DNA of 64,000 nt from Myxococcota bacterium. GTDB taxonomy: Bacteria; Myxococcota; B64-G9. Position numbers and translations under genes: made by a program. This document shows positions 1 to 38,068 of the stretch, piece after piece. The notes below the pieces were generated by a model. It worked only from the letters and a program-made list of their open reading frames with translations, did not search any database and was not told where the DNA came from. Location: NCBI GenBank assembly GCA_022710975.1, contig JAKLGA010000001.1, forward strand, positions 620,001-684,000, read 5' to 3'. Positions within the stretch are counted from its first letter, which is position 1. Each line of letters starts with the position of its first letter.

Positions 1-1128
1 CGTGTCCTCGGTGGCCACCACCACGGTCTGCTGGATCTTGTTCTCCAGCTCCCGGATGTTGCCCGGCCAGTTGTAGCCGACCAGCTTCTGCAGGGCGAGC
101 GGCGAGATCTCGGACACGTCCTTGTCGTGCTCCTTGGCGAACTTGCGCAGGAAGTGGTTGGCCAGCAGCGGGATGTCCTCCTTGCGGTCCCGCAGCGGCG
201 GGATGCGGATGGGCACGATGTTCAGCCGGTAGTAGAGGTCGTCGCGGAACTGGCCCTCCGCGATGGCCGCCTTGAGATCGCGGTTGGTGGCCGAGATGAT
301 GCGCACGTCCACGTGGATGGTCTTGTTGCTGCCGAGCGGCTTGACCTCCTTCTCCTGGAGGAAGCGCAGCAGCTTGACCTGGACCTTGGTGCTGATCTCC
401 CCGACCTCGTCGAGGAACAGCGTGCCGGTGTTGGCCTCCTCCACCAGCCCGGGCGTGTCGGAGTGCGCGTCGGTGAAGGCGCCGCGCTTGTAGCCGAACA
501 GTTCGCTCTCCAGCAGGTTCTCGGGCAGGGCCCCGCAGTTGACCGGCACGAACGGGCGGCTGGCCCTCCGGGAGAAGTAGTGGATGGTGCGGGCGATGAG
601 CTCCTTGCCGGTGCCGCTCTCACCGTAGACCACCACCGAGGCGTCGGTCTGGGCGATGGCCGGCAGCGTCTCGATCACCTTGCGCATGGAGGCCGAGTTG
701 CCCACGACGTGCTCGCGGTCCGTGTACTGGCGGAGCGAGGTCTTCAGCCGGTGGATCTCCCGGGAGAGGTGCAGCTTCTCCATGGCTCGCCGCACGCGGT
801 GGCAGAACACCTCGCGGGTGAGCGGCTTGGTGATGTAGTCGTGGGCCCCGGACTGGAGGAAGTGCACGGCGTCCTCGATGGTGCCGTAGCTCGTCATGAT
901 GATCACCGGGATCTCGGGGTTGAGCTTCAGCACCGCGTCCAGCACGGCGTCCCCGCTGACCTCGGGCATGCGGATGTCGGTCACCACCACGTTGATGTCG
1001 CCGCGCTGGATGAGCTCGAGCGCCTCCTTGCCGTTCGAGGCGAGCACGAGCTCGTACTCCTCGTTCCGGCAAAACACCTCGATGAGGTAGCGGGTGTTGG
1101 GATCATCGTCGACGACGAGGACTTTCAA
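1..1128 (-). CDS. NtrC-family sigma-54-dependent response regulator (3' part cut by window edge)
   Basis: This is a two-component response regulator that would activate sigma-54 RNA polymerase. The start is a TTG at 1128 behind a clear GGAGG (about 1135-1139); no ATG start is available in frame. The receiver domain covers residues 1-120, with acidic residues D7-D9, phosphoacceptor D51 in VVVTDIRMP and the conserved Lys in ITKPL. The AAA+ domain follows, with Walker A GESGTGKE near residues 167-174 and LFLDEVGE as Walker B. The sigma-54 contact loop near 214-219 reads GAFTDA instead of GAFTGA. The protein continues past the edge, so the Fis-type DNA-binding domain is not visible. The gap upstream holds a plus-strand sigma-54 promoter that this regulator might control (inference from proximity). 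Confidence 0.93.
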   Translation of the reverse strand, partial: MKVLVVDDDPNTRYLIEVFCRNEEYELVLASNGKEALELIQRGDINVVVTDIRMPEVSGDAVLDAVLKLNPEIPVIIMTSYGTIEDAVHFLQSGAHDYITKPLTREVFCHRVRRAMEKLHLSREIHRLKTSLRQYTDREHVVGNSASMRKVIETLPAIAQTDASVVVYGESGTGKELIARTIHYFSRRASRPFVPVNCGALPENLLESELFGYKRGAFTDAHSDTPGLVEEANTGTLFLDEVGEISTKVQVKLLRFLQEKEVKPLGSNKTIHVDVRIISATNRDLKAAIAEGQFRDDLYYRLNIVPIRIPPLRDRKEDIPLLANHFLRKFAKEHDKDVSEISPLALQKLVGYNWPGNIRELENKIQQTVVVATEDT

Positions 1129-1319
1129 GGCTACCTCCGGGGCAGACTTGCCGCACCGTCAACATCTCGAAATGAAATAGAAATACAGAATTCTCCAAAA
1201 TCCGCGTGGTAAACATACCCCAATTACTCCGAACATGGCAAGAGAAATCATCTCGGTCGCGCTCCATCAACAGGCTGTTTCCCAAGCGATTATTTTTTTA
1301 CCCGGAGGACCGGTGGTAA

Positions 1320-1604: not shown

Positions 1605-4059
1605 ACCGGATCTGCAGAGACAGCCAGGGCAGCAGGGCCAGCGCGGGCTCCTGGCTGAGGGCTGCCAGGGCCGCGAGCTGCTGGAGCGCGCCGCGCAGGC
1701 TCTCGGGCAGGAGCTCCGCCTCGGTCGAGCCCAGGCCGAGCTCTCCCAGGAGTCGCATCAGCGTCCAGCGGGCCTTGGGCAGGTGGACCAGCCGCACCGG
1801 GTCCTCCGGGCCGAGCCCGATGCGCTCGCGGGCCAGGGCGAGGGCCTTGTGCAGGCCCCCGAGCTCGTCCACCAGGCCGCGCGCCCGCGCCTGCTGGCCG
1901 GTCCAGACCCGACCCTGGGCGACCTCCTCGACCCGGGTGCGCTCGAGCTGCCGTCCCTCCGCCACGCGATCGACGAACACCTTGTAGAAGCCGTCGACCA
2001 CCGCCTGCAGCCGGGCGAGCTCCTCCGGCGTGCGGCCGCGCAGGTAGGAGTAGAGGTCGGCCTTCTCGCCGCGCCCGATGACCTCCTGACTCACCCCGAG
2101 CCGGGCCGCCAGCTCGCTGAGATCGAACAGCAGGCTGAAGACGCCAATCGACCCCGTGAGCGTGGCCGGGTTGGCCACGATGGCGTGGGCGGGGACCGCG
2201 ATGTAGTAGCCCCCCGACGCCGCCACACCGACCATCGAGACGATGAGCGGCTTCTTCTCCCGCAGGCGCTTGAGCTCGTTCCACAGCAGCTCGGAGGCCA
2301 GCCCGCTGCCGCCAGGCGAGTCGATGCGCAGCACCACCGCCTCGACCTCCGGATCGCGGGCCAGGCTGCGCAGGGTGCGGAGCAGCTCACGCACCGGCAT
2401 GCCAGGCAGCAGGCCCCCCTGCCCGTAAGAGATGCTGCCCTGGGCGTGGACCACGGCGATGGTCGGCGGAGGGCTCCAGCGGTCGTCCAGCCAGCGCTCC
2501 TCACGGTAGCGCCCCAGGTAGCTCGGGGCGTGGCCGAGCAGCTTCTCGAGCGGCGCGTCGAGATCGTGGATGTGCTCGATCCCGTCCACGAGGCGCCGGG
2601 TGAGCGCCTCCTCCGGGGTGAGCAGGCCCTCGTCCACCGCCTGCTGGACCTGCTCGCGGGACAGGCCACGCCCCTCGGCGATGGCCGTGAACTGCTGGTC
2701 GGCGAGCTCGTCCGCCAGGCTGTCGAGCACCTCGCGGCTCTCCGGGCTCGGCTCCTCGCGGGTGAACATCTCCACCGCCGACTTGTACTTGCCGGCCTGC
2801 ACCGACTCGGCCCGGCCGCCCACGAGGGTCAGGGCGCCGCCGAGGAACAACGCCGACACCTGCGGTCCGGTCACGGCCCAGCTCCCGCCCGGCGAGAGGA
2901 AGATGCGGTCCGCGCCGGCGGCCAGGTAGTAGCTCTCGTTGGTCGCGGTCTCCAGGTGGAAGACGAGCTTCTTGCCTGCGGCCCGGACGGCGGCGCAAGC
3001 CTCGCGCAGCTCCTGGACGCGGGTCAGGCCGAGCTCGACGTCCTCCACCCGCACCAGCACCGAGTCCACGCCCTCGTCGCGGGCGGCGTAGCGCAGGGCG
3101 AGCTCCGCGTCGTACAGGGTCGGGCGGCTCGAAAACAGCCCGCGCTTGACGTCGGCGTCGGCCAGCTCCCCGTCGAGGACGATCACGGCGGTCTGCCCGT
3201 GCAGCACGCGGAATCCCGGGCGGGGCTCGAGCGACATGCGGGCGCCCACCACCAGGCCCTGGTTGACGTACTCCTCCTCGCCGCCGAAGCTGGTGTAGCC
3301 CGAGACGCCGAGGTGAGGCAGGTCCAGCGCCAGGCCGAACCCGAAGGCGCCCTCCAGGTCGGCCGAGGCGAACAGCGACAGCCCCTCCCAGACCTGGGCC
3401 TGGGCCGTGAAGCGGATGGACGGGTCGCCCAGATCCTCGAGCATGCGGTAGTCGACCGCCAGCGTCAGCGTCTCCGGCGCGAACCACAGGGGACGCGCGG
3501 CCACGGACAGATCCAGGCTGCGGTGGCCGTGGCTGCCCCCGAGCCGGGCCTCGGCCAGATCGCGGCCCACCAGACCGAAGGACAGGTAGCGCCAGGGGCG
3601 CAGCATCACGCCGACGAACCAGTCCACCGCGGGATCCGCGTCGGTCTCGGTCGGATCCAGGACGCTCAGCCCCACGGCCAGGGCCGCCAGGTCCCACAGC
3701 GGCGCGCTCAGCGCCAGGTCGAACTTGAGGTAGTCTCGCGCCTGATCGTCCACGTTGGGGTTCAGGTACTGGACCGAGGCGCTCACCCAGGGCGTGGAGA
3801 TGAACAGGCCATCGGCCCGGCCGGCGGCCTGGAACTGCTGACCCCAGCGCTCGTGGTGCAGGTAGGCCACCTCGAGCGTGCCCCCCCAGGCCAGGCCGGC
3901 CGGGTTCCAGGCCAGGCACAGCGGGCCGCGGCACGCGGCCGCCGAGTCGGCCGGCAGGGCCATGTCGTAGGCGCCGGCGCTCTGGGCGCGGGCGAGTCCG
4001 CTGGCCAGCAGGCACGGCGCCAGGATCGCGGTCAGGGCGGCGGGCACCAGGCGTCTCAT
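1603..4059 (-). CDS. sppA: signal peptide peptidase SppA (S49) fused to an N-terminal barrel-like domain
   Basis: This is an 818-aa exported Ser/Lys protease of the S49 family. After a signal peptide (residues 1-25) come about 250 residues that do not belong to SppA. They include NPAGLAW and a run of amphipathic segments with alternating glycine and aromatic residues, resembling PorV/OmpP1-type outer-membrane proteins. The tandem SppA halves follow. The catalytic Lys is K426 in KYKSAVE and the nucleophile S615 in GVAASGGYY; TGSIGVF and QGRVWTGQQA are also present. E. coli SppA has 618 residues and a membrane anchor instead of this extension. The ATG overlaps the stop of the upstream sigma-54 activator by 4 bp (ATGA), so the two are coupled. 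The protease assignment is firm; the barrel reading of the N-terminus is inferred. Confidence 0.92.
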   Translation of the reverse strand: MRRLVPAALTAILAPCLLASGLARAQSAGAYDMALPADSAAACRGPLCLAWNPAGLAWGGTLEVAYLHHERWGQQFQAAGRADGLFISTPWVSASVQYLNPNVDDQARDYLKFDLALSAPLWDLAALAVGLSVLDPTETDADPAVDWFVGVMLRPWRYLSFGLVGRDLAEARLGGSHGHRSLDLSVAARPLWFAPETLTLAVDYRMLEDLGDPSIRFTAQAQVWEGLSLFASADLEGAFGFGLALDLPHLGVSGYTSFGGEEEYVNQGLVVGARMSLEPRPGFRVLHGQTAVIVLDGELADADVKRGLFSSRPTLYDAELALRYAARDEGVDSVLVRVEDVELGLTRVQELREACAAVRAAGKKLVFHLETATNESYYLAAGADRIFLSPGGSWAVTGPQVSALFLGGALTLVGGRAESVQAGKYKSAVEMFTREEPSPESREVLDSLADELADQQFTAIAEGRGLSREQVQQAVDEGLLTPEEALTRRLVDGIEHIHDLDAPLEKLLGHAPSYLGRYREERWLDDRWSPPPTIAVVHAQGSISYGQGGLLPGMPVRELLRTLRSLARDPEVEAVVLRIDSPGGSGLASELLWNELKRLREKKPLIVSMVGVAASGGYYIAVPAHAIVANPATLTGSIGVFSLLFDLSELAARLGVSQEVIGRGEKADLYSYLRGRTPEELARLQAVVDGFYKVFVDRVAEGRQLERTRVEEVAQGRVWTGQQARARGLVDELGGLHKALALARERIGLGPEDPVRLVHLPKARWTLMRLLGELGLGSTEAELLPESLRGALQQLAALAALSQEPALALLPWLSLQIR

Positions 4060-5942
4060 GCGTCACCTCCATCGCTCGGGGCCGGCGGTTTCAGGCCGAG
4101 GCGCTCGAGCTTGAGCAGCAGCGCCTGGCGGGTGATGCCCAGTTGCCGCGCGGCGTGGGTGCGGTTGCCTCCGCAGCGTGTCAGCGCCTCCTCGACCAGG
4201 ATGCGCTCGACCCGCGCGAGCTGCGCCTTGAGCTCCCCCTGGCCGGCCGCGCGGCAGGCGCGCGCCAGGGGATCCTCCTGGGCGAAGGCCAGGTGACCCA
4301 GCTCGATGCGGGCCTCGCCGGCCGCCGCGATGAGCGCGCGGTGCACCTCGTTGGACAGTTCGCGCACGTTGCCCGGGTAGTCGCGGGCGGACAGCGCCCG
4401 CATCGCCTCCGGGGACACCTCCGGCACGGGCAGGCTGTCCTGCGCGGCCAGGCGCGCGAGCAGGTGCTCGACCAGCAGCGGGATGTCCTCGCGGCGCTCG
4501 GCCAGCGAGGGCACCTTCAGGGGGAAGACGTGGATACGGTAGAACAGATCCTCGCGGAAGCGGCCGGCGCGCACCTCGGCCGCGAGATCGCGGTGGGTGG
4601 CGCAGATCACCCGCACGTCCACCCGCTTGGTCCGCGTGCCGCCGACCGGCTGGACCTCGCGGGTCTCCAGGACGCGCAGCAGCTTGACCTGCAGGGCCGG
4701 GCTCATCTCGCCGATCTCGTCCAGGAACAGGCTGCCGCCGTGGGCCACCTCGAACAACCCCTCGCGGTCGCGGTGCGCGCCGGTGAAGGCGCCCTTGCGG
4801 TGGCCGAACAGCTCGCTCTCCAGCAGGCTGTCCACCAGGGCCCCGCAGTTCAGCGCCGCGAACAGCCCGGCGTGGCGCAGGCTCTGGCGGTGGAGCTCGC
4901 GGGCCACCAGCTCCTTGCCGGAGCCCGAGGGCCCCAGGACGAGCACCGTGGCGTCGGTCACGGCCACGCCGCGGAGCTCCTTGCGCAGCCGCTCCATGGC
5001 CGCGCTCCGGCCGACCAGCTCCTGGCCGGCCCGCCCCTCGGCCCGCTCGCGCAGGTAGCGGTTCTGGGCCAGGAGCTGGGCCCGGGCCCGCTCCAGGGCC
5101 GCGAGCGCCGCGAGCTCCGCCAGGCGGCGGGCGAGGAAGGCGGCCGCGAGCTGGAGGCCGTCCAGCTCCTCGGCCGGAGGCGCCTCCGCGCGGAAGCGCA
5201 CCAGCAGGCTCGCCACCGCCCCCTGAGGGGCCGGCAGCGGCACGGCCACCATGGCTCCGCGGGCGTCCGCCGGGCGCAGCACCAGGAGCTCTCCAGCGGC
5301 GCCGGGGGGCGGCGCCGTCCACGCGTCCAGCGCCGCGGCGGGCCCCCACAGCACCTCCCGCGCGGCGTCGGCCGGGCCGAGCCACAGGCCCGCGTCCGCC
5401 CCGGGCAGGTTGCCGGGCAGCCACCCCGCGGCCACCCGGCGCACCGCGGCCGCCTCGTCCGCGCGCCCCAGGGCCTCGGCCAGCTCGAGGAAGGGCGCCA
5501 GCCCCCGCCCCGCGGCCTGCAGCCGCCCGGACAGCTCCAGCGCCCCGGCCAGCCTGGCGGTCGCCACCAGGGTGAGGCCCGCGGGTGGAGCCGCGCCGGC
5601 CCCGGCCGCGCTGGCGCCGGCGCTGGCCGCCAGCACCTCGAGCACCAGCGGCGTCGCGTCCGAGCCCAGCAGCAGCCGGTCCCCGGTGCGCAGCTCCAGC
5701 CCGGGCCCTCCCGGCGCGAGCGGTGTCCGCAGCCCGGCCCGCTCCAGGGCCGAGCCGTTGGTCGAGCGCAGGTCCTCGACGGCGTAGCCCTCGCCCCGCC
5801 GCTGGATGCGGGCGTGCAGCGCGGACACGTGGGGATCGTCCAGGACGAGGTCCGCCGGCGCCCCCCGGCCGAGGCTGACGGACTCGGCCTCCTCCGGGAA
5901 GTCGAACACGGGGCCCTCGGGCAACCTTCGCAACCGCAGCAA
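4056..5942 (-). CDS. FHA-domain sigma-54-dependent transcriptional activator
   Basis: This 628-aa enhancer-binding protein takes its signal by phosphopeptide recognition, not by a receiver domain. An FHA domain occupies residues 10-105 (SLGRGAPADLVL, VSALHARI, DLRSTNGSALERAG). A GAF-like region follows (about 150-285), then the AAA+ domain with Walker A GPSGSGKE near 336, GAFTGA near 381 and LFLDEIGE. A Fis-type helix-turn-helix ends the protein (GGNRTHAARQLGITRQALL). It lies 24 bp after the TPR protein gene and two genes after the Ser/Thr kinase. In Myxococcus such FHA activators are tied to Ser/Thr phosphorylation, so this kinase is a plausible partner (inference). It overlaps sppA by 4 bp. 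Confidence 0.93.
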   Translation of the reverse strand: MLRLRRLPEGPVFDFPEEAESVSLGRGAPADLVLDDPHVSALHARIQRRGEGYAVEDLRSTNGSALERAGLRTPLAPGGPGLELRTGDRLLLGSDATPLVLEVLAASAGASAAGAGAAPPAGLTLVATARLAGALELSGRLQAAGRGLAPFLELAEALGRADEAAAVRRVAAGWLPGNLPGADAGLWLGPADAAREVLWGPAAALDAWTAPPPGAAGELLVLRPADARGAMVAVPLPAPQGAVASLLVRFRAEAPPAEELDGLQLAAAFLARRLAELAALAALERARAQLLAQNRYLRERAEGRAGQELVGRSAAMERLRKELRGVAVTDATVLVLGPSGSGKELVARELHRQSLRHAGLFAALNCGALVDSLLESELFGHRKGAFTGAHRDREGLFEVAHGGSLFLDEIGEMSPALQVKLLRVLETREVQPVGGTRTKRVDVRVICATHRDLAAEVRAGRFREDLFYRIHVFPLKVPSLAERREDIPLLVEHLLARLAAQDSLPVPEVSPEAMRALSARDYPGNVRELSNEVHRALIAAAGEARIELGHLAFAQEDPLARACRAAGQGELKAQLARVERILVEEALTRCGGNRTHAARQLGITRQALLLKLERLGLKPPAPSDGGDA

Positions 5943-33483: not shown

Positions 33484-34092
33484 ATGAGGCGATCCATGTG
33501 CGTGGTCGCGCTGGGGCCTTGCCTGGCGCTGCTCGGGTGCGCAGGTGGGGCGGCGGAGCAGCGGACCGTCCGTCCGGCCCAGCCCCAGGTGCAGTGCTAC
33601 GCCGGCAAGGGCGAGGTGACGCTGGCCGACGGGCGCAAGCTGCCGACCGGCGAGAAGGTCGTGCGGCGCACCCTGGATCCGCTCAACAGCCGCATCCTGG
33701 AGGAGGTCCTGGAGCTGGATCCCTCCGGCGAGCGGCCGCCCCAGGTGTGGGTGGTGCGCCTCAAGGTCGAGCGGAACCCACGGCCGGATCCGGCCGCGGT
33801 GGAGCCCAACCTGCGCTGCGCCTTCTTCTTCCGGGCCTCGGAGGACACGGACCGCTTCGAGGGCCTGGGCTGCCTCGAGGGGGAGGCCTGGGCCTGGCAG
33901 GCCTGGACCGCCAGCTACCGGCTGGCCACGCGCGGCAAGGTCGAGTCCAGCGACCGCCTCGAGGCCGACGGCCTGCACGTGACCCAGAAGGTGTGGAACG
34001 ACATGGACGTCCTCGAGGCGCAGGTCGAGGAGCTGCTCGTGCCCGTGGGCGCGGAGGTGTGCTCCGGGCGGCTCCCTCCTCCGGGCCGCTGA
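33484..34092 (+). CDS. lipoprotein of unknown function
   Basis: The 202-aa product starts at the ATG at 33484 after GGAGGTGA, and has a lipobox LLGC with C19. The mature protein has YAGKGEVTLADGRKLPTGE and a C-terminal half with paired Cys and many Trp residues (GLGCLEGEAWAWQAW). The pattern suggests a small beta-sheet domain, but I recognise no family. No neighbour points to a role. Confidence 0.8.
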   Translation: MRRSMCVVALGPCLALLGCAGGAAEQRTVRPAQPQVQCYAGKGEVTLADGRKLPTGEKVVRRTLDPLNSRILEEVLELDPSGERPPQVWVVRLKVERNPRPDPAAVEPNLRCAFFFRASEDTDRFEGLGCLEGEAWAWQAWTASYRLATRGKVESSDRLEADGLHVTQKVWNDMDVLEAQVEELLVPVGAEVCSGRLPPPGR

Positions 34093-34216
34093 GCCCCGTA
34101 GCTGCGTATCCCCGTTCGCACTGACTCCCGAGTCGGGAATCCGCGGTGGCGTGCCCGCAGGTGTGACGCGGCGCACGAAACGTTGTTTTTCGATGGGTTG
34201 CCTGTGGGGACCTGCC

Positions 34217-34232
34217 TGGCCGGCTCCTTGCT
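34217..34232 (+). promoter_or_regulatory. sigma-54 (-24/-12) promoter of the 79-aa gene
   Basis: TGGCCGG, four bases and TTGCT match 14 of the 16 consensus positions, with GG (34218-34219) and GC (34230-34231) ten bases apart. Transcription would start near 34243, 28 bases before the ATG at 34271. A perfect inverted repeat TCCCGA-G-TCGGGA (about 34127-34139) lies 80-90 bp upstream, a typical distance for an activator site. Confidence 0.55.
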
Positions 34233-34270
34233 TGGATGCAGGGCGCAGGGAGCGAGGAAAGGAGGTCATC

Positions 34271-34510
34271 ATGGTGCGTCAGGTGTTCGACGAAGAGGTG
34301 CAGATTTCCTCCTCCATGGTCCGGAGCGTGTTCGGTCAGCTCAAGGCCAACGGCTACTCGGAGTCCCAGATCCTGGCCCTGTCCAGGGACCTGGCCGAGC
34401 TGGCGGTCAAGGCCCTGCCCCGCCCGTCCGAGGACCACGTCCTGATCCCCACCAACTCCCGGTGGGGGCTGTGCTTCGAGGTCAACCTCGAGCAGCTCGG
34501 GTACGTCTGA
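34271..34510 (+). CDS. 79-aa small protein, probably sigma-54-controlled
   Basis: The product is a soluble, mostly helical protein (MVRQVFDEEVQISSSMV, VFGQLKANGYSESQIL, LSRDLAELAVKAL) ending in a beta-like segment (NSRWGLCFEVNLEQLGYV). The ribosome site is nearly ideal: AAAGGAGGTCATC precedes the ATG. It ends 101 bp before the gap gene, which has its own promoter. No family is recognised. The strong translation signal, sigma-54 promoter and small size suggest a regulated abundant protein (inference). Confidence 0.75.
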   Translation: MVRQVFDEEVQISSSMVRSVFGQLKANGYSESQILALSRDLAELAVKALPRPSEDHVLIPTNSRWGLCFEVNLEQLGYV

Positions 34511-34536: not shown

Positions 34537-34565
34537 TTGACTCGCTCCCGGGGCTGGGATAGAAG
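34537..34565 (+). promoter_or_regulatory. vegetative promoter of the gap-pgk-tpiA-secG operon
   Basis: TTGACT (-35, 5 of 6), 17 bp and TAGAAG (-10, 4 of 6) lie 47 bp before the gap ATG, which is preceded by GGAGGTGTC. This is the best sigma-70-type promoter of the window. Confidence 0.6.
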
Positions 34566-34611: not shown

Positions 34612-35622
34612 ATGGCTATCCGTATCGGGATCAATGGGTTCGGGCGCATCGGTCGGATCGTCACCCGGGTCATCTACCAGCGCGGCCTGGCCGGGAAGTA
34701 CGAGGTCGTGCACATCAACGACATCAGCGAGCCCAAGACCCTGGCCCACCTGCTCAAGTACGACTCGGTGCACCGCACCTTCCCCCACGAGGTGAAGGCC
34801 CTGGAGAAGGGCATCGCCGTCGACGGCCGGACCATCGACGTGTCGGCCATCAAGGACCCGGCCGAGCTGCCCTGGGCGGCCAAGAAGGTGGACATCGTCC
34901 TGGAGTGCACCGGCAAGTTCCTCGACCGGGCCGGCGCCGACAAGCACATGAAGGCCGGCGCGCCCTACGTGTTCCTCTCCGCGCCCCCGAAGGACAAGGA
35001 CATCCCGGCCTTCGTGTTCGGGGTGAACCAGGCGAAGTTCGATCGGGCCAAGGACAAGGTGTTCTCCAACGCCTCCTGCACCACGAACTGCCTGGCCCCG
35101 ATGGCCAAGGTCGTGCATGAGACCTTCGGCATCGAGCATGGCCTGATGACCACCATCCACTCCTACACCAACGACCAGCGCGTGCTGGATCTCGAGCACA
35201 AGGATCTCCGGCGCGCCCGGGCGGCGGCGCTGAACATGATCCCCACCACCACGGGCGCGGCCAAGGCCGTGGGCATGGTGCTCCCGGAGCTCAACGGCAA
35301 GCTGGACGGCTTCTCCATGCGCGTGCCCACGCCCAACGTGTCGGTGGTGGATCTGGTGGCGGTGCTCGAGAAGGCGGCCACGGCCGAGGCCATCAACGAG
35401 GCGCTGCGCAAGGCCTCCGAGGGCAGCCTGAAGGGCATCCTGGGCTTCACCATGGAGCCGGTGGTCTCCAGCGACTTCCTGGGCGACGATCGCTCCTCCA
35501 TCGTGGACGGCTCGATGACCAAGGTGCTGCACGGCAACCTGGCCAAGATCCTCACCTGGTACGACAACGAGTGGGGCTTCTCCTGCCGCATGCTGGACAT
35601 GGTGGGGCACGTGGTCGGTTGA
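34612..35622 (+). CDS. gap: glyceraldehyde-3-phosphate dehydrogenase (type I)
   Basis: The 336-aa enzyme oxidises glyceraldehyde-3-phosphate to 1,3-bisphosphoglycerate with NAD. NAD motif [13 protein letters not shown] begins at residue 3. The catalytic Cys is C156 in [29 protein letters not shown] and [15 protein letters not shown] are the family signatures. Length is normal. It starts the operon gap-pgk-tpiA-secG, with 4 bp to pgk. Confidence 0.97.
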
Positions 35623-35626
35623 GCGC

Positions 35627-36802
35627 ATGGGCGTCCGGTTCATCGAGGATCTGCCCATCACGGGCAAGCGCACCTTCATCCGGGTGGACCTCGACGTCCC
35701 CCTGAAGGACGGCCAGGTGTCCGACGACACCCGGGTGCGCGAGGCCCTGCCCACCATCCGCCACGCGGTGGCCCGGGGGGCGCGGGTGATCCTGGCCAGC
35801 CACCTCGGCCGGCCGCGCGCCAAGGTCCACGAGGGTCTGCGCCTCGAGCCGGTCGGCGCCAAGCTGGCCGAGCTGCTCGAGGTGGACATCATCGCCGCGG
35901 ACGACTGCATCGGCGACGGGGTGCGGAAGCTCTCCCAGGATCTCCGCGACGGACAGGTCCTGCTGCTCGAGAACCTGCGCTTCCACGCGGGGGAGGAGGC
36001 CAACGAGCCGGCCTTCGCCGAGCGCCTGGCCGCCCTGGCGGAGGTGTACGTCAACGACGCCTTCGGCAGCGCGCACCGCGCCTGCGCCTCCACGGTCGGG
36101 GCGCTGAAGCACTTCAAGCACCGGGGCGTCGGCTACCAGATGCGCAAGGAGCTGCGCTTCCTGGGGGAGACGCTGGTGAAACCCAACCACCCGTTCGTGG
36201 CGGTGGTGGGCGGGGCCCGGCTGTCCGAGCGGCTCGGCCTGCTGCAGAGCCTGCTCGCCCGGGCCGACGTCCTGCTGCTCGGCGGCGCCCTGGCCTGCAC
36301 CCTGCTGAAGGCGCGCGGGGTGGCGGTGGGCGCCTCCCTGGTGGAGCCGGACAAGGAGCGCGCCGCGCTCGAGTTCCTGGAGGCGGCCCGCGAGCGCAAG
36401 GTGGAGGTCGTGCTGCCCGAGGACCACGTGGTGGCCAGCGGCCCCGAGGCCACCCAGGGCGAGACCGTCGTGGGCGCCATCCCCGCCGGGGGCGTCGGCC
36501 TGGACATCGGCCCCCGCACCCTGGCGCGTTTCGAGCGGGCCCTGCAGGGCGCCCGCACGGTGTTCTGGACCGGCTCGCTGGGCATGTTCGAACGGCAGGC
36601 CTTCGCCGCCGGCACCCTGGGGATGGCCCGGGCGGTGGCCGGGGCGCAGGCGGTGAGCGTGGTGGGTGGCGGCCAGGCCGCGCTGGCCCTGGCGCAGGCG
36701 GGACTCGTGGACAGGGTGAGCCACGTGTCCACCGGCGGGGCCGCGAGCCTGGAGTACGTCGAGGGACGGATCCTGCCCGGCGTGGCGGCCCTGGAGGGCT
36801 GA
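35627..36802 (+). CDS. pgk: phosphoglycerate kinase
   Basis: The 391-aa enzyme makes ATP from 1,3-bisphosphoglycerate. Signatures are [47 protein letters not shown] and [14 protein letters not shown]. In the C-terminal half are [14 protein letters not shown] (a variant of the usual VxGGAKVxDK) and [17 protein letters not shown]. The lysine of the usual VSDK is replaced by Arg in this stretch. The length is normal, and the gene is 4 bp from gap and 32 bp from tpiA. Confidence 0.95.
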
Positions 36803-36834: not shown

Positions 36835-37584
36835 ATGCGCAGGAAGTTCATCGCCGGCAACTGGAAGATGCACCTGCTGCCGCCCGAGGCGCGGGCGCTG
36901 GCCCGGGCGGTCAAGGAGCTGGCGGCGGGGCTGCCCCAGGTGGACGTCGCGGTGGCGCCCACCTTCGCCGGCCTGGCCGCGGTGGCCGAGGAGCTCAAGG
37001 GCAGCCGCGTGGGCCTGGCGGCGCAGAACTGCCACTGGGAGATCCAGGGGGCCTTCACCGGCGAGGTCTCGGCCGAGATGCTGCGCGCGCTGGGCGCGAC
37101 CCACGTGATCGTGGGCCACTCGGAGCGGCGCCAGCTCTTCGGCGAGACCGACGAGACGGTGAACAAGAAGACCCACGCCGCCCACCGGGCGGGCCTGAAG
37201 CCCATCGTGTGCGTGGGCGAGACCCTGGCCGAGCGCGAGGCGGGCCGCACCCTCGAGGTGGTCGAGCGCCAGGTGCGCGGCGCGCTGCGCGAGGTGGCCC
37301 CGGAGCGCATGCCCCAGCTCACCCTGGCGTACGAGCCCGTGTGGGCCATCGGCACCGGCAAGGTTGCCAGCCCGGCCCAGGCCCAGGAGGTCCACGCCCG
37401 GCTGCGAGAGCTCCTGGGGGAGCTCTACGGCCGCGGGCTGGCCTCCGAGGTGCGGCTCCAGTACGGCGGTTCGGTGAAACCCGACAACGTGAAGGACCTG
37501 ATGGCCCAGCCCGACATCGACGGCGCCCTGGTGGGCGGGGCGAGCCTGAAGGCGGATAGCTTCGCCGCGTTGCTTCGCATGTGA
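36835..37584 (+). CDS. tpiA: triosephosphate isomerase
   Basis: The 249-aa enzyme interconverts dihydroxyacetone phosphate and glyceraldehyde-3-phosphate. Catalytic residues are visible: K11 in AGNWKMH, H95 in VGHSERR and E167 in [12 protein letters not shown]. The phosphate loop YGGSVKPDN and GGASLK are present. It completes the glycolytic trio ahead of secG, a gene order common in bacteria. Confidence 0.97.
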
Positions 37585-37606: not shown

Positions 37607-38068
37607 ATGTACGTCTTGATCGTGGTCCTGTATGTGTTCTGCTCCCTGTTCCTGATCATGGTGGTGCTGCTGCAGCAGGGCAAGGGCTCCGGGATGGGCG
37701 CTGCCTTCGGCGGGGCCAGCAACACGCTCTTCGGCGCGCGCGGTCAGGTGACGCCCCTGCAGAAGATCACCACCATCTCGGCGGTGCTGTTCATGGCGCT
37801 GTCGGTGATCCTGACCTCCTTCTCCACCGGTGCCTCCTCGGACCTGGCCGGAGAGGAGGGCGAGGTGCCCGCCGGCCAGGAGGAGGGGCTGCAGCCGGCC
37901 GACCAGGGCGGCAGCATGGGCACGAGCCAGCCGGGCGACGCCAAGCCGGCCGAGGCGCCGATCGACGCCCAGCCGGTGGACGCCCCGAAGCCGGTCGAGG
38001 CGCCGAAGCCCGCCGAGGCCCCCGCGCCGGCTCCCGCCCCCGCGCCTGCGCCCGCTCCCGCGCCCTGA
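37607..38068 (+). CDS. secG: preprotein translocase subunit SecG with Ala/Pro-rich tail
   Basis: The 153-aa protein has the two SecG membrane spans (YVLIVVLYVFCSLFLIMVVL, and ITTISAVLFMALSVIL) with the family motif QQGKGSGMGAAFGGASNTLFG between them. SecG is a non-essential subunit of the SecYEG channel. Beyond residue 80 the protein carries an acidic, then Ala/Pro-rich, low-complexity tail ending in repeated AP dipeptides, so it is about twice the minimal SecG length. Confidence 0.93.
   Translation: MYVLIVVLYVFCSLFLIMVVLLQQGKGSGMGAAFGGASNTLFGARGQVTPLQKITTISAVLFMALSVILTSFSTGASSDLAGEEGEVPAGQEEGLQPADQGGSMGTSQPGDAKPAEAPIDAQPVDAPKPVEAPKPAEAPAPAPAPAPAPAPAP

Follow-up and report, generated by a model that had tools for sequence, protein, structure and literature searches.

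In a 64,000-nucleotide stretch of Myxococcota DNA (the window), a sigma-54 promoter and a nearly private activator site lie ahead of a gene for an unnamed, phylum-wide protein that is predicted to fold as a hairpin. This arrangement is very likely real, new in detail and known in kind. It is probably best explained as an activator-gated, usually monocistronic sigma-54 gene whose small product would be a regulator or an adaptor. The promoter, the activator-site motif, the protein family and its linkage to gap were established by comparing sequences among relatives. The features are as follows.

1-1158, minus strand: response-regulator sigma-54 activator, start near 1158 (L108:1349-2659)
4056-5942, minus strand: FHA-type sigma-54 activator
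34103-34120, no strand: probable upstream activator site, dyad TGCGTA-TCCCCG-TTCGCA, 12/12 to TGCGWA-N6-TWCGCA
34126-34138, no strand: palindrome TCCCGA-G-TCGGGA (TCCCGAGTCGGGA), judged not functional (chance level, not conserved)
34162-34179, no strand: possible weak second dyad TGTGACGCGGCGCACGAA, 8/12, uncertain
34216-34232, plus strand: sigma-54 -24/-12 promoter CTGGCCGGCTCCTTGCT, with GG-N10-GC kept ahead of the orthologous gene across families
34260-34265, plus strand: ribosome-binding site AGGAGG, from the sequence
34271-34510, plus strand: 79-aa protein, member of an unnamed family
34537-34565, plus strand: sigma-70-type promoter of gap, TTGACT-N17-TAGAAG
34612-35622, plus strand: gap, glyceraldehyde-3-phosphate dehydrogenase (Pfam Gp_dh_C 9e-68, Gp_dh_N 1e-35)
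35627-36802, 36835-37584 and 37607-38068: pgk, tpiA and secG after gap, read from sequences and order

The probable promoter and its altered -12 element in Myxococcaceae

A sequence-only reading had proposed a sigma-54 promoter for the 79-aa gene, and its elements are all present: the site at 34216-34232, AGGAGG at 34260-34265, the ATG at 34271 and an open reading frame to 34510. Within the site, the GG of the -24 element is at 34218-34219 and the GC of the -12 element is at 34230-34231, N10 apart. The site matches TGGCACGN4TTGCW at 14 of 16 positions, a count that includes the four Ns and amounts to 10 of the 12 specified bases. By itself this match is weak evidence, since four sites in the 64-kb window reach at least 14/16 with GG and GC in place. 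The site is convincing because it is kept in relatives. GG-N10-GC was found upstream of the orthologous gene at 8/8 loci of the window's own family (f1), 18/18 of the Anaeromyxobacter group (f13), 9/9 of family f23 and 6/6 other tabulated loci, and the GG is 39-124 bp from the start codon at the tabulated loci that carry it. Among the sampled members outside the Myxococcaceae, all but two or three have GG-N10-GC shortly before the start codon; those without it are L012, a second copy (L068) and possibly another second copy (L075). The genome also has rpoN, as its one Sigma54_DBD gene, and 41 complete sigma-54 activators were recovered from it. Judging from this conservation, the promoter of the 79-aa gene is very probably real, and transcription is predicted to start near 34243.

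A scan demanding GC at -12 found no sigma-54 site in the Myxococcaceae (f8). When the sequences were read directly, the -24 half TGGCACG was kept and the -12 half was mostly TTGA or TTGT. At 21 loci the -12 dinucleotide is GA (17) or GT (4), making 21/21 non-GC. A further 29 loci, which come from another collection and perhaps include some of the same strains, have GA in 25 cases, GT in two and GC in two. Loci L043-L058, L077-L082 and L128-L168 mostly carry GA or GT, with GC still present in the MAGs L160 and L168. Replacement of GC by GA or GT at -12 usually harms sigma-54 promoters. The altered sites are therefore candidate promoters, and this point counts against the explanation that we prefer.

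Upstream dyads and comparison with known regulons

The dyad at 34103-34120, which the sequence-only reading had overlooked, is the only match to TGCGWA-N6-TWCGCR in the 7.13-Mb genome. A control pattern gave one match per strand in the same genome, so a lone match is near background and it is the position of the dyad that counts. Its centre lies about 106 bp before the GG. The motif recurs upstream of the small gene throughout Myxococcota, and most loci have two upstream dyads. Of 62 loci, 49 have a best upstream dyad of at least 11/12, a score reached by 2 of 1240 shuffled sequences. The comparison is partly circular, because the motif was first spotted by eye in upstream regions and scored afterwards, and part of this very set went into its definition. 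A genome-wide search is somewhat more independent. It found 82 exact dyad sites in 30 genomes, of which 20 lie ahead of the small gene and no more than 450 bp from it (0.006 expected). The dyads of the window's own family are weaker (9/12 at five of the eight loci), and that of the window alone is perfect; this too counts against the preferred explanation.

The distances between dyads fall into two clusters, 41-45 bp at 27 loci and 52-55 bp at 13, and none measures 46-51 bp. They correspond to about four and five helical turns, the pattern to be expected of activator oligomers that have to sit on the same side of the DNA. In the window a single dyad is perfect, and any second one would be weak. 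The sequence at 34162-34179 scores 8/12, which is also the commonest score in shuffled sequences, and it is included here solely because two dyads are usual in relatives. Phased dyads about 50-150 bp upstream, as in NtrC-type enhancers, are thus found here at the sequence level, with the spacing clusters coming from relatives.

NtrC-type sigma-54 promoters are alike in combining GG-N10-GC with one or two helically phased upstream dyads. The present arrangement differs from them in two ways: in several lineages a genome has the dyad motif at only one or a few positions, and most Myxococcaceae have GA or GT at -12. Since the motif is so restricted, its activator should be findable by pull-down.

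Two regulons of Myxococcus xanthus were considered for the window dyad, and membership in both was rejected. NmpR sites have the form GCGCA-N5-TGCGC, lie mostly 14-15 bp apart and, where bound, all share a GCA-N5-TGC core (PMC11841059). The likeness consists of two GC-rich dyads with similar half-sites upstream of a sigma-54 site in Myxococcota. In contrast, the dyads here read GCGWA-N6-TWCGC, with a 6-bp spacer and A/T inner positions, and are 41-55 bp apart centre to centre; the window dyad TGCGTATCCCCGTTCGCA lacks the core of the NmpR consensus (PMC11841059). Nla28 sites are tandem half-sites CT(C/G)CG(C/G)AG, with a similar CTGCG core, whereas a by-eye comparison found the window dyad to be inverted, not tandem, with different inner bases (PMC7910581).

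Just upstream of the activator site, 33484-34089 (plus strand) encodes a putative lipoprotein, about 200 aa long, for which Pfam gave no match. In another genome a second exact dyad (G078:C1:981256-981273, L093) precedes a sigma-54-like site, GTGGCACCGACCTTGCG, by about 100 bp. The reading frame that contains this dyad matches NAD-GH and DAGK in Pfam, and the dyad may mark a second target.

The small protein and its relatives

A search with the single sequence recovered the small protein from 11 of 58 genomes, counting the one it comes from, and a profile search found the family in 144 of 195 Myxococcota genomes, with Anaeromyxobacter, Myxococcus, Corallococcus and Archangium among the named relatives. 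A scan of public genomes with the single protein sequence gave no match. The core reads roughly KILAxSxFxxLRxNGYSxxQILxLSTELIDLVT. The protein had been described as unrecognised, which agrees with the lack of family matches in Pfam and NCBIfam. AlphaFold placed helices at residues 14-26 and 31-48; over residues 11-50 the block means of pLDDT are 90-98, and confidence is low elsewhere. A two-helix hairpin with a disordered C-terminal tail is predicted. A fold search with this model returned no similar solved structure, and a PDB sequence search returned short repeat-like matches only. Judging by gene order, MXAN_2813 is presumably the orthologue in M. xanthus; a literature search found no paper mentioning it. 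The protein would act by contacting other proteins, serving as a regulator or adaptor that is induced by a signal. The SinI-type anti-repressor of Bacillus is also a small helical-hairpin protein that acts by protein contact, and the likeness is meant as an analogy. Homology to SinI was rejected at an hhalign probability of 0.4%.

Outside Myxococcota, some Desulfobacterota/Deltaproteobacteria have small proteins with a homologous hairpin (11 of the 247 genomes sampled). Nearly all of these relatives have a sigma-54 site upstream, for example TTGGCATGCTAGATGCA in one of the Desulfobacterota, about 49 bp before the start. Because the Desulfobacterota gene again comes with such a site, the sigma-54 association of the small protein extends to two phyla. 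Where examined, this gene lies beside cmk and aroA, not gap; L340, also from Desulfobacterota, has a sigma-54 site and gap downstream. Another conserved upstream motif, TATTGCA...CACAG, was seen in Deltaproteobacteria/Desulfobacterota MAGs (L170-L182 without L173, and L185).

In Burkholderiales and relatives (Massilia and Herbaspirillum relatives), GAF-domain proteins end in a C-terminal hairpin that is likewise homologous to the small-protein core. In contrast to the small protein, the hairpin there is fused to a GAF sensor domain, and these genes have no convincing sigma-54 site. The GAF-hairpin loci are L183:3395-4126, L184:3359-4168, L186:3647-4147 and L189:1817-2575.

Alternative readings and the proposed circuit

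The sequence-only reading had called the palindrome TCCCGAGTCGGGA activator-like and had pointed to two activators encoded in the window as proteins that might bind it. The palindrome is present at 34126-34138, and its position about 80 bp upstream of the GG is plausible. The genome has no second copy of the exact sequence, but for a 13-mer this is not unusual. When the upstream regions of relatives were compared, GG-N10-GC was conserved and the palindrome was not; its best match in seven same-family relatives is 8-9/13. A search for more such palindromes, also suggested in that reading, turned up 66 perfect 6+1+6 palindromes in the window, which is chance level. Judged from these comparisons, the palindrome, which starts 6 bp after the perfect dyad stops, lies beside the probable activator site by coincidence, and the dyad is likely the better candidate. 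The case for the two activators was weakened as well. No reciprocal best hit to either turned up in G038 or G187, although an orthologue there could have been missed; since both genomes keep the promoter and dyads, the window activators are unlikely regulators. The response-regulator activator also has no Fis-type DNA-binding domain by Pfam. We regard binding of either activator to the palindrome as very improbable.

The response-regulator activator may not need to bind DNA, or its DNA-binding domain may be divergent. Reciprocal best hits across G000, G038, G187 and G133 identified four activator types common to all (L220, L223, L224 and L226). The best conserved, the L220 type, occurs also in genomes where the small gene was not detected and is thus not specifically linked to it.

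A different reading is that the sigma-54 promoter serves to raise expression of the gap-pgk-tpi operon, with the small ORF mainly a leader. The small gene is immediately upstream of gap in most families: at nearly all non-Myxococcaceae loci with gap in reach, gap is 69-263 bp downstream on the same strand (38 bp at L012), and the L340 locus points the same way. In the window no terminator was found before gap, so read-through is possible there. However, TTGAC with a -10-like hexamer precedes gap at 32/32 gap-adjacent loci; with a sigma-70-type promoter of its own for gap, the small gene would normally be a separate transcription unit. A terminator-like hairpin lies between the two genes in 21 of the 32 intergenic regions. 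In Myxococcus the order is FAD-dependent dehydrogenase, small gene, amidase-like protein, gap and pgk, and the Myxococcaceae dyads persist even though gap is about 3.8 kb away. The other Desulfobacterota genes are sigma-54-linked beside cmk and aroA instead. The small protein is also conserved as a protein, with 907 substitutions at third codon positions against 434 and 405 at the others, an excess expected of a translated gene. We consider the operon-leader reading unlikely. The third-position excess, the conservation of the protein across the phylum and a search of Rfam that gave no match also speak against a regulatory RNA as the functional product. Short monocistronic transcripts can be small RNAs, but such a product is highly improbable here.

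We favor the activator-gated sigma-54 gene for a small hairpin protein. An NtrC-type enhancer-binding protein would bind at 34103-34120 and, in most relatives, also at another dyad in phase with the first. It would reach RNA polymerase-sigma-54 at 34216-34232 via DNA looping and trigger transcription near 34243. The mRNA would be translated into the 79-aa protein, whose conserved part is the predicted two-helix hairpin, while gap downstream would be driven by its own sigma-70-type promoter. Of these steps, activator binding and the start site, like the function of the protein, are what we infer.

The lasting linkage to gap suggests that the small gene may be linked to central carbon metabolism. 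A broader and rather doubtful extension is that a dedicated enhancer-binding protein has essentially one target per genome throughout the phylum. This target would be an ancient small hairpin protein that couples some sensed signal to central carbon metabolism, perhaps through binding to GAPDH or to a regulator, and the Myxococcaceae would run the circuit from a promoter altered at -12. Throughout the phylum, in model organisms such as Myxococcus and Anaeromyxobacter too, the promoter and the activator site have stayed with their product, a protein that is still unnamed. The change from GC to GA at -12 across most Myxococcaceae provides a natural experiment on sigma-54 promoter recognition.
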